A program made the translations under genes and the position numbers. The notes below the pieces were generated by a model, which was not told the origin of the DNA, made no database searches, and saw only the letters and a list, made by a program, of their open reading frames with translations. This document shows positions 30,294 through 38,704 of a DNA stretch of 44,977 bases, one piece after another (position 1 is the first letter of the stretch; every line of letters begins with the position of its first letter). Source of the stretch: Candidatus Venteria ishoeyi (GTDB taxonomy: Bacteria; Pseudomonadota; Gammaproteobacteria; Beggiatoales; Beggiatoaceae); assembly GCF_030378065.1 (NCBI RefSeq), contig NZ_JAUCGJ010000019.1:1-44977 (forward strand), in the 5' to 3' direction.

Positions 30294-30674
30294 TTACCTA
30301 CTTAAGTTTTGTTCGCATAATTTCAGTTTTTTACACACAAAGTTCACGTCATTGGCTGTTAAATTCCCGGCAGCCTGACGAAAAGACTCAATGAGGTATT
30401 TTGCGCGAAAAACACCATCAGGTAGCAGGATAGGGCTGCTTTTATAACGTCCGGGACGGTTTTCGCCATCATCCATTCGATCATGACTACAACCTTTATC
30501 ATGCTGCCAGGTAATTACCCGTGCCTCGCGCGTTTTATTATAAACCAACTGAAAGCCAATGATTCTGACATGTGTTTCGTCAAGCCACAACATTAAATCA
30601 AATTCCTGATCCATAAACCAGCGGCGCAATGGTTCACCTTTGACTTGTTTCACTTGTAAAATTTCATATAACAT
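30294..30674 (-). CDS. Conserved hypothetical protein coupled to the sigma-54 activator
   Basis: 126 residues, soluble, no signal peptide. Features seen: 'RRWFMDQEFDLMLWLDE', 'GFQLVYNKTREARVITWQHDKGCSHDRMDDGENRPGRYKSSPILLPDG' and a helical C-terminus with two Cys. I recall similar uncharacterised proteins in other gammaproteobacteria. The start codon shares its A with the activator's stop (TGATG), so the two are translationally coupled; it may modulate the activator or share its signal. Function unknown. Confidence 0.7.
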   Translation of the reverse strand: MLYEILQVKQVKGEPLRRWFMDQEFDLMLWLDETHVRIIGFQLVYNKTREARVITWQHDKGCSHDRMDDGENRPGRYKSSPILLPDGVFRAKYLIESFRQAAGNLTANDVNFVCKKLKLCEQNLSR

Positions 30675-32015: not shown

Positions 32016-32029
32016 TGTCATTATTGACA
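32016..32029. promoter_or_regulatory. Candidate activator binding site TGTCA-N4-TGACA
   Basis: A perfect inverted repeat, TGTCATTATTGACA, lies about 107 bases before the -24/-12 promoter and about 50 bases from the activator's own start codon. A further TGACA half-site is at 31984-31988. Upstream placement at 80-150 bases is normal for sigma-54 activator sites. It could be shared by the small RNA promoter and autoregulation. Inference from symmetry and position. Confidence 0.45.
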
Positions 32030-32135
32030 GTCAATCATTATTTTCTGGAAAGGGTCACACCTGAAAATTTAAAATGAAAGGATAAAAGTATTTAATATCA
32101 AATAGTTAAGCTAGTGACTGGGTTTTCCATGAAAT

Positions 32136-32151
32136 TGGCATAGACACTGCA
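32136..32151 (+). promoter_or_regulatory. Sigma-54 (-24/-12) promoter
   Basis: TGGCAT-AGACA-CTGCA has the invariant GG and GC exactly 12 bases apart (32137 and 32149). It keeps TTGGCA and TGCA of the consensus, with three mismatches elsewhere. Expected start of transcription is about 32162. It lies on the opposite strand from the sigma-54 activator gene. Confidence 0.65.
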
Positions 32152-32161
32152 TTTATTAAGT

Positions 32162-32282
32162 AAGATTTTAAGTGCATCACAAAACATAAGTCAGTATTAA
32201 ACAGGTGAGTTTTTCACCTTATTTAGCCTCCTAAGCCAAGCCTTTGAAGCGGGAAGAGTTGATCTTCACCGCTTCTTTTTTT
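32162..32282 (+). ncRNA. Candidate sigma-54-dependent small RNA
   Basis: From the predicted start (~32162) to the end of the terminator T-run is ~121 nt with no plausible ORF. A 6-bp hairpin AGGTGA/TCACCT (32203-32219) is followed by an apparently unpaired stretch with CCTCCT (32227-32232), complementary to Shine-Dalgarno sequences, and then a strong intrinsic terminator (32246-32282). The next plus-strand gene is 4 kb away, so the transcript is autonomous. Size, sigma-54 promoter, terminator and proximity to an activator gene parallel known cases such as qrr1 beside luxO or crcZ under CbrB. Not matched to any known RNA family. Confidence 0.6.
32246..32282 (+). terminator. Intrinsic terminator of the candidate small RNA
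   Basis: GAAGCGG (32246-32252) and GAAGA (32253-32257) pair with TCTTC (32263-32267) and CCGCTTC (32269-32275), leaving one bulged A and a 5-base loop. Seven T follow (32276-32282). The T-run is only on the plus strand, so it serves plus-strand transcription and not the LytTR gene. Confidence 0.85.
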
Positions 32283-32295
32283 GTCTGTTTTCAGG

Positions 32296-32376
32296 TTAGG
32301 AACGAGGATAAAATAAGAAGTGAAACCGGGCGTAGGATTTTCATTTATTTTCAGGACAAATAAATAGTTACATCGC
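32296..32376 (+). repeat. Repeat family C, copy 1 (partial)
   Basis: TTAGGAACGAGGATAAAATA (32296-32315), then GAAACCGGGCGTAGGATTTT and CATTTATTTTCAGG, match the reverse complement of the right end of 42627-42802 closely (for example GAAACTGGGCGCAGGATTTT). Similarity fades before the LytTR stop codon. It lies between the small RNA terminator and the convergent LytTR gene. Confidence 0.65.
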
Positions 32377-32380
32377 AAGC

Positions 32381-33151
32381 TCAGGTTTTAGCATTACGGC
32401 GCGCGCCACACATATCGCGGATAGTATGTTTAACATTTTGCAGATGGCGGCGACTGATTTCCAATTGCTCATCAATCCCAGTAAACGTAATATAATGCTG
32501 ACCGTTATCATCTTTTTTCCAGCCAGCGACATGTACCAGCGCAACCAGCGCATTACGGTGTATCCGTAAAAACTGCCCGGAAAACTCTTCTTCCAGATTT
32601 TTTAAAGATTCATCCAGTAATACTTCACCGCCTGACCAGGCCATCGTGACATATTTTTGTTCAGCACGAAAATAATAAGCTTTTTCTACCGGTATCAAGC
32701 GTACTTCGCCATGCATATTGATACTGATATGGGTACGCGCCCTTTTGCTGTGATCGGTATTATTCAGGTCTTTTTCCACCTGTGGTTTTTTATGCCAGGC
32801 TTTTGCCCGATCCAGCGCCTGCTCAAGGCGCTCGCGGCGAATCGGTTTGAGCAAATAATCCACAGCTTGTTGCTCAAAAGCATCCAGCGCATACTCACTA
32901 TATGCTGTGGTAAAAATAATAATCGGCGGATGTGGATAGGTGCTGAGCTTTTTAGCCGCATCCATGCCATTAATACTGGGCATCCCAATATCCATGGTCA
33001 CAATATCTGGTTTATAGGCTTTACTCATTTCCAGAACTTCGCGTCCATTGGCTGCTTCTATTTCTAATACTTCATGACCGCCAATTTCATTGAGCAAGGC
33101 ACGCAGGCGTCGCCTTGCTAACGGTTCATCATCTGCAATCAGAATTCTCAT
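32381..33151 (-). CDS. LytTR-type response regulator (AlgR-like)
   Basis: 256 residues. Receiver domain with DDEP (residues 7-10), phospho-acceptor Asp in IVTMDIGMP near 54, Thr in FTTAYSEYAL and Lys in YLLKPI; then a LytTR DNA-binding domain (about 150-250) with 'FLRIHRNALVAL' and 'LEISRRHLQNVK'. The layout matches AlgR. Its usual partner kinase gene (algZ/fimS) is not adjacent, and the lone kinase at 4188-6605 is of another class. Repeat B copy 2 ends 24 bases before its start. Confidence 0.9.
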   Translation of the reverse strand: MRILIADDEPLARRRLRALLNEIGGHEVLEIEAANGREVLEMSKAYKPDIVTMDIGMPSINGMDAAKKLSTYPHPPIIIFTTAYSEYALDAFEQQAVDYLLKPIRRERLEQALDRAKAWHKKPQVEKDLNNTDHSKRARTHISINMHGEVRLIPVEKAYYFRAEQKYVTMAWSGGEVLLDESLKNLEEEFSGQFLRIHRNALVALVHVAGWKKDDNGQHYITFTGIDEQLEISRRHLQNVKHTIRDMCGARRNAKT

Positions 33152-37546: not shown

Positions 37547-38704
37547 ATGAATAAAAAAACCTTGATCAGCAGCCAGACCCTGGCTTTAGTGGCAGCAGGT
37601 AAATTGGCCGTGCAATCCAGCACCGTATCCGCCGAAGATATGATGGATACCAGTTCCAAACTGACAGGTGCCAACCAAACGGAACAGGATCCTAATCACG
37701 TCCCACCGATGCGCTCGGATCAACTCTGTACGCCTTTAGACGTTTGTATGCCGCCGACTAAAGATTTTATTAATGATTTTGATGATGCTGAATTTTCCGG
37801 AAAAATAGGGGGTATGCGTCGCCAGATGGGTTCAGGCAAAATGCCAGAGTCAGAGCCTGTTGATAAACCGCGTTATTTTGCCAGTAATGGTGTAATTTTT
37901 GCCGGTGATGTGGATGACTTTGGCGAAGCTGGCCCACGTCCTAAAATTGATTTTATTATCAGTGGCGTACCGAATAAAACAACTGACATATTCCTGATGT
38001 ATTCTGATCGACCAATGGGTAAAAAAAAGCCAGGCATGGATGGTATTCCCGGTGAAGATATGCCGGAAGACGATGTACTGGCACCGATGTTTGACAACCC
38101 TGAAGGCAGTGGCGACCTGGGCATTCCTTTGTTGGATTCCAGCGGCAATCTGGAAGCCGATCTGAAATTCATCACCGGTATCCGCGCCGAGCCTGTTAAA
38201 CCCATACCTGGTTTTGACGTTGACAATAACGGCGTATTTGATATGCCTCCTTCACCTTTGGGTAAACCCCAAATTAACCAGCGCACGGTTGTTATTTCCG
38301 TAAACCTGGATAAATTAGGCCAGATGGTACAAGACGGTCAACTACCTCATAATGTTTATTTCCAGGTAGCAGCTTTCCCGGTTGGAGAAGATGACGCACC
38401 GAATATTGACTTTGCCAAAGCCCAGTTCTCTGATGTGGATCATTACATTATTGAAGTACCCGGTGATGAAGGCGATTTGAGCACTGATCCAGGCACTAAA
38501 GGTGGCACCATGACCGCAGATTCAGCCAGCAAATCAGATGGTTCTACCGGCGACTCTACTGGCGGCAAATCAGATGGTTCTACCGGCGACTCTACTGGCG
38601 GCAAATCAGATGGTTCTACCGGCGGCTCTACTGGTGGCTCTACTGGCGGCAAATCAGATGGTTCTACTGGCGGCTCTACTGGCGGCTCTACTGGCGGTAA
38701 ATAA
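37547..38704 (+). CDS. Secreted protein with Gly/Ser/Thr-rich C-terminal repeats
   Basis: 385 residues. The N-terminus (MNKKTLISSQTLALVAAGKL...TVSA) resembles a signal sequence though only weakly hydrophobic. The middle is acidic and beta-rich, with a calcium-loop-like DVDNNGVFD near residue 225 (DxDxNGxxD). The last ~60 residues repeat GKSDGSTGDSTG and GGSTGGSTG. Such tails are seen in surface proteins and are flexible or glycosylated. Function not recognised. The GNAT gene follows after 9 bases. Confidence 0.6.
   Translation: MNKKTLISSQTLALVAAGKLAVQSSTVSAEDMMDTSSKLTGANQTEQDPNHVPPMRSDQLCTPLDVCMPPTKDFINDFDDAEFSGKIGGMRRQMGSGKMPESEPVDKPRYFASNGVIFAGDVDDFGEAGPRPKIDFIISGVPNKTTDIFLMYSDRPMGKKKPGMDGIPGEDMPEDDVLAPMFDNPEGSGDLGIPLLDSSGNLEADLKFITGIRAEPVKPIPGFDVDNNGVFDMPPSPLGKPQINQRTVVISVNLDKLGQMVQDGQLPHNVYFQVAAFPVGEDDAPNIDFAKAQFSDVDHYIIEVPGDEGDLSTDPGTKGGTMTADSASKSDGSTGDSTGGKSDGSTGDSTGGKSDGSTGGSTGGSTGGKSDGSTGGSTGGSTGGK
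38529..38701 (+). repeat. In-frame coding repeats encoding the Ser/Gly/Thr tail
   Basis: A 33-base unit beginning AAATCAGATGGTTCTAC with GGCGACTCTACTGGCGGC is repeated, with later units expanded by 12-base GGCTCTACTGGC steps. All copies keep the frame, so length can change without loss of function. Confidence 0.85.

Follow-up and report, generated by a model that had tools for sequence, protein, structure and literature searches.

A FisR-linked sigma-54 promoter and its predicted small RNA in Candidatus Venteria ishoeyi

In the genome of Ca. Venteria ishoeyi a gene encoding a FisR-type sigma-54 activator stands divergent from a -24/-12 promoter whose product is most likely a non-coding RNA of about 121 nt (Table 1; the window is the whole stretch of DNA analysed, 44,977 nt long). 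We consider it rather probable that FisR senses reactive sulfur and drives this promoter to produce a short non-coding RNA, which would probably act in trans. A more tentative proposal is that a sulfane-sulfur-sensing FisR has come to drive a small RNA in place of a protein target, which would then constitute an RNA arm of the FisR regulon and a post-transcriptional relay. If transcribed, such an RNA would join reactive-sulfur sensing to RNA-based control within the sulfane-sulfur regulon. In favor of the small RNA we count the invariant cysteines of the sensory domain, the recurrence of site and promoter, and the sulfide and respiration genes divergent from fisR in relatives, as well as a strong plus-strand terminator, the lack of an ATG and the lack of any other plus-strand gene before position 32381. 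The preliminary description, which had read the region as a candidate sigma-54-dependent small RNA beside its probable activator, stands with respect to the promoter, the binding site, the activator, the lack of an evident ORF and the terminator, but not with respect to ribosome-site blocking.

Table 1. Features of the fisR locus and the predicted RNA (positions in the window)
Feature	Position	Strand	Remarks
FisR-type sigma-54 activator, 431 aa	30674-31969	-	PAS, AAA+, Fis-type HTH (Pfam)
Probable FisR binding site TGTCATTATTGACA	32016-32029		perfect palindrome TGTCA-N4-TGACA; recurs upstream of relatives' fisR
-24/-12 sigma-54 promoter TGGCATAGACACTGCA	32136-32151	+	GG-N10-GC, 9/12 consensus letters; spacing to site matches relatives
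Predicted non-coding RNA, ~121 nt	32162-32282	+	start placed from the promoter; no ATG
6-bp hairpin of predicted RNA	32203-32219	+	inner pairs probability 0.96-1.0, closing pair 0.88
CCTCCT, mostly unpaired, putative role	32227-32232	+	predicted mean unpaired probability 0.80
Intrinsic terminator, 12-bp stem with one bulge and seven T	32246-32282	+	-18.5 kcal/mol
LytTR regulator gene, convergent with predicted RNA	32381-33151	-	

The activator and its sensory cysteines

The divergent PAS/AAA+/Fis activator of sigma-54 with a cysteine-containing PAS domain, as described earlier, is confirmed by Pfam and by a GAFTGA motif (residue 203) in the AAA+ domain, and its assignment can be sharpened to the FisR type. 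The PAS domain carries Cys48, Cys59 and Cys66, all of which are conserved without exception in the 44 aligned PAS domains (14 from the family, 29 from the class and one from Cupriavidus metallidurans), while the remaining three PAS cysteines are present in eight, one and five of the 44. Cys48 and Cys59 are spaced by 11 residues, as are Cys53 and Cys64 of Cupriavidus FisR, whose third conserved cysteine we take to be Cys71. According to excerpts of the published accounts, Cupriavidus FisR has three conserved cysteines (PMC9774590) and a tetrasulfide forms between Cys53 and Cys64 (PMC9495516), and in both Cupriavidus pinatubonensis and Acinetobacter baumannii FisR acts as a sigma-54 activator in response to sulfide or sulfane sulfur (PMC7315123). 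Judging from its residues and from the genes beside fisR in relatives, the window activator is probably a FisR-type sensor of persulfide or sulfane sulfur and, by analogy with the Cupriavidus protein, would detect persulfide or polysulfide by means of the cysteines in its PAS domain.

Orthologues of the activator were found in 13 other genomes among the 42 of the family, with 56-63% identity, and a search with the PAS domain alone gave a clear gap after the fourteenth match (E 5.5e-26, then 7.2e-13). Of 369 genomes drawn from across the class, 65, including the source, had a PAS match at E 1e-15 or better, and 29 of these loci outside the source genome were examined. Genome contigs scanned with the activator yielded two distant loci only, and a scan of viral contigs gave no match. 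Within the source genome there are 15 matches to the activator protein, itself included, and another sigma-54 activator could use the window promoter. A 126-aa ORF (30294-30674, minus strand) without a match in Pfam or NCBIfam overlaps the fisR stop codon and looks co-transcribed.

Site, promoter and their recurrence beside fisR

Both the -24/-12 promoter and the perfect TGTCA-N4-TGACA site are present, the latter lying 106 bases before the promoter (about 107 in the preliminary description). Taken alone, the promoter is weak evidence, because 22 sites of equal or better score exist on the two strands of the window; a plus-strand site of such score also occurred in 3.1% of shuffled intergenic regions (n = 2000), and with its nine matching letters the promoter falls below most of the family's best ones. 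The combination of site and promoter is specific. The perfect palindrome occurs seven times in the 4.4 Mb of the source genome, of these seven only the one in the window is accompanied, within 300 bases, by a -24/-12 of score 9, and the two elements at this spacing were found at this single place, with none in the reversed control.

A search of the 42 family genomes for TGTCA-N4-TGNCA followed after 92-122 bases by the promoter gave six matches and none in the reversed control. Five of these lie upstream of fisR orthologues (in G000, G033, G034, G037 and G038), and the sixth is in G031, where the PAS search detected no fisR orthologue. Among 43 FisR-type loci, window included, a divergent -24/-12 of score at least 9 lies within 660 bases at 28, a site with at most one mismatch at 26 and both at 19, counts that are mechanical and may include some false promoters. 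The layout of a divergent sigma-54 unit with an upstream site thus recurs beside fisR in relatives, and the predicted FisR/sigma-54 control of the window promoter is well supported by these comparisons: the motif, its spacing and the recurring layout suggest that FisR at the palindrome would drive sigma-54 RNA polymerase at the promoter.

The genes divergent from fisR in relatives differ from locus to locus. A Pfam scan of 20 of the 40 candidate divergent ORFs gave Pyr_redox_2 (SQR-like, five), cytochrome bd subunit I (two), the metallo-beta-lactamase fold (two, persulfide-dioxygenase-like), YgaP-like TM (two), the FeMo-cofactor family (one), globin (one), Tll0287-like (one), no family (five) or sub-cut-off matches only (one). 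With NCBIfam, CydP was above cut-off in L074, and below cut-off L121 resembled CydP, L114 sulfur dioxygenase and L101 type III SQR; more CydP/CydA frames were identified by eye. On a Pseudoalteromonas plasmid, the genes divergent from a 32%-identical PAS activator are annotated as cydP and cydB. The frames divergent from the activator of C. metallidurans look dioxygenase-like and SQR-like by eye, and by script this locus has no -24/-12 of score 9 and sites only with two mismatches. The comparison presents one sensor, with a recurring site and promoter layout, that switches targets between genera. Since the window protein groups with two YgaP-TM-linked proteins in the PAS tree (support 93/92), an RNA here would be derived. 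Two relatives (L075 and L102) likewise have no ORF soon after the promoter, and L075 looks rearranged.

Two further observations concern these loci. FisR-type activators are divergent from cydP/cytochrome bd genes at ten of them (L009, L071, L073, L074, L076, L077, L105, L107, L117 and L121, partly by eye), which suggests that FisR directly controls a sulfide-resistant oxidase in those relatives. In G028 (L078), fisR and its promoter are separated by an insertion that has a copy of a repeated segment, ATCATAAGCCAAATTTGTCAG, on either side (about positions 113 and 266 of the upstream sequence, by eye).

The predicted transcript and competing readings

The transcript would begin near 32162, carry no evident coding sequence and stop at the terminator. 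The 6-bp hairpin, the CCTCCT, predicted to be mostly unpaired, and the 12-bp terminator with seven T are all present, as listed in the preliminary description. By script the terminator, whose stem spans 32246-32275 before the seven T, ranks second in stability among 17 in the window and first on the plus strand, and it is absent from the output of a separate terminator scan of the window. The fold of the whole RNA is more stable than that of shuffles (z -2.21), most of which is accounted for by the terminator, and in the minimum-energy fold CCUC sits in the loop of a weak hairpin. At the gathering score of Rfam, a tRNA elsewhere was the sole match, with none to the predicted RNA, and at E up to 5 only suhB/mmgR, InvR and rpfG appeared, all far under the gathering score.

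The claimed lack of an ORF is supported: the stretch has no ATG and the script found no plus-strand ORF of at least 35 codons with a ribosome site after the promoter. The missing ATG, also seen in 52% of shuffles (n = 2000), is uninformative alone. Without the ribosome-site filter, the first frames of at least 40 codons begin at about 32426 and 32657, past the terminator and antisense to the convergent LytTR gene, and no further plus-strand gene precedes that gene's end at 32381. That the stretch is translated, as a very short peptide or leader, we regard as highly improbable: a 9-codon GTG frame runs across the hairpin and the promoter of L102 may be followed by a frame of 29 codons (by eye), but the predicted RNA offers just four GTG or TTG triplets as starts and no clear ribosome site (by eye).

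The transcript might instead mainly meet the 3' end of the LytTR regulator mRNA, as a cis-antisense or convergent-terminator element. The two units do converge, and the minus strand from 32381 to 31970 offers no convincing terminator, so that the LytTR mRNA could run through the stretch; the predicted RNA, however, ends about 100 bases short of the LytTR stop codon and any overlap would therefore be in untranslated sequence only, and we find this reading improbable.

Just right of the terminator, 32293-32400 resembles two other places in the genome (L002 and L003), with 25-29 bases at 93-96% identity and a longer likeness by eye, and looks like a dispersed repeat reaching the end of the LytTR gene. 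Farther along the window, a secreted-looking protein (37547-38704, plus strand) ends in GGKSDGSTGDSTGG-type repeats.

The chief weakness of the small RNA reading is the missing conservation of the RNA, which the preliminary description had named as a check. Blastn of 141 bases against the 42 family genomes gave no accepted homologue beyond the window, the other 41 being none of them congeneric; a single-sequence covariance model, run on the same genomes with stricter filters, gave no accepted match except the window, and on the 43 fisR-type loci the covariance model had none in the other 42. Only the site and promoter recur. In several relatives blastn repeatedly matched query positions 48-69, which cover the hairpin, the best match being in G024 (E 2.1e-4). 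These matches were rejected as homologues because at five of the nine loci examined the flanking sequence is a common one that looks like the 5' end of a gene encoded on the opposite strand, by eye presumably panB. The sole covariance match in a relative, also in G024 with E 0.33 and 26 bits, overlaps this place and was likewise discarded, and short blastn matches at E up to 10, present in all 42 genomes, were taken as chance.

Because no acceptable homologue of the RNA was found, in family genomes or at fisR-type loci, the main rival remains an orphaned promoter: the protein gene that FisR once drove would have disappeared or changed place, and the short transcript now made between promoter and terminator would have no meaning. 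We judge this unlikely, although several observations fit it. Targets change or vanish within the family: G007 keeps the site without promoter or evident target, and in G037 the promoter is followed by rearranged sequence. For cytochrome bd subunit I the source genome yields only a single, weak match (59 bits, ~620 aa). In addition, two relatives have a NifX-like protein beside fisR, 27 residues of which resemble a stop-interrupted frame at 32145-32225 (41% identity, E 0.001), and for the two NifX-like queries a score of at least 18.9 bits was reached in 0 of 120 shuffles. Over all 358 query frames, however, 52 of 120 shuffles reached E 0.001 or better and 35 reached at least 20.4 bits, so that the resemblance, the one candidate for a decayed target gene, fits chance; moreover it overlaps the -12 element of the promoter. 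Also against an orphaned promoter stands the well-formed terminator, which follows the promoter at the usual length of an sRNA. The single cytochrome bd subunit I match (L134) is itself a divergent protein of about 620 aa, followed by a protein with CxxCH motifs.

Under the preferred reading, a short RNA would be produced as reactive sulfur rises, where relatives instead would make sulfide-handling proteins directly, and, more speculatively, this RNA would probably pair with mRNAs in trans via its single-stranded stretches. The accessible CCUCCU expected of an anti-Shine-Dalgarno sRNA is indeed predicted, but the blocking of ribosome sites proposed earlier found no backing in the genome: complementary start sites of the form TTAGGAGG-N3-10-ATG are not enriched (four vs. 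11 for the reversed control, for one 8-mer), with a frame of more than 20 codons opening at one of the four.

Comparison with known systems

Among the matches listed, the open-licence literature showed no FisR-controlled small RNA, and PMC8469610 was the sole paper naming both FisR and "small RNA" (once). The window protein keeps the Cys53-Cys64 spacing of Cupriavidus FisR (excerpts of PMC9495516). In A. baumannii, FisR is likewise a sigma-54 activator divergent from its target with a predicted sigma-54 promoter, and is described there as lacking the regulatory cysteines; the targets named in these excerpts (PMC7315123) are protein-coding sulfide-oxidation genes, whereas here a predicted RNA takes their place.

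Closer in product are two sigma-54-dependent sRNAs. Qrr1 of Vibrio is transcribed by sigma-54 polymerase and its activator LuxO has palindromic upstream sites (excerpts of PMC10162802). LuxO, however, works in quorum sensing as a phosphorylated response regulator, and the predicted RNA has no Rfam match to Qrr. The qrr1 gene adjoins luxO. In Pseudomonas and Azotobacter, the RpoN-dependent sRNA gene crcZ adjoins the gene of its activator CbrB, but CrcZ is encoded downstream of cbrB and acts by relieving Hfq-Crc repression (excerpts of PMC6292655), and the predicted RNA has no Rfam match to CrcZ. Conservation of the RNA, a trait of the Qrr/CrcZ kind, was not found in the 41 other family genomes, none of them congeneric; the traits present are a -24/-12 promoter with an upstream site, no evident ORF and an intrinsic terminator.
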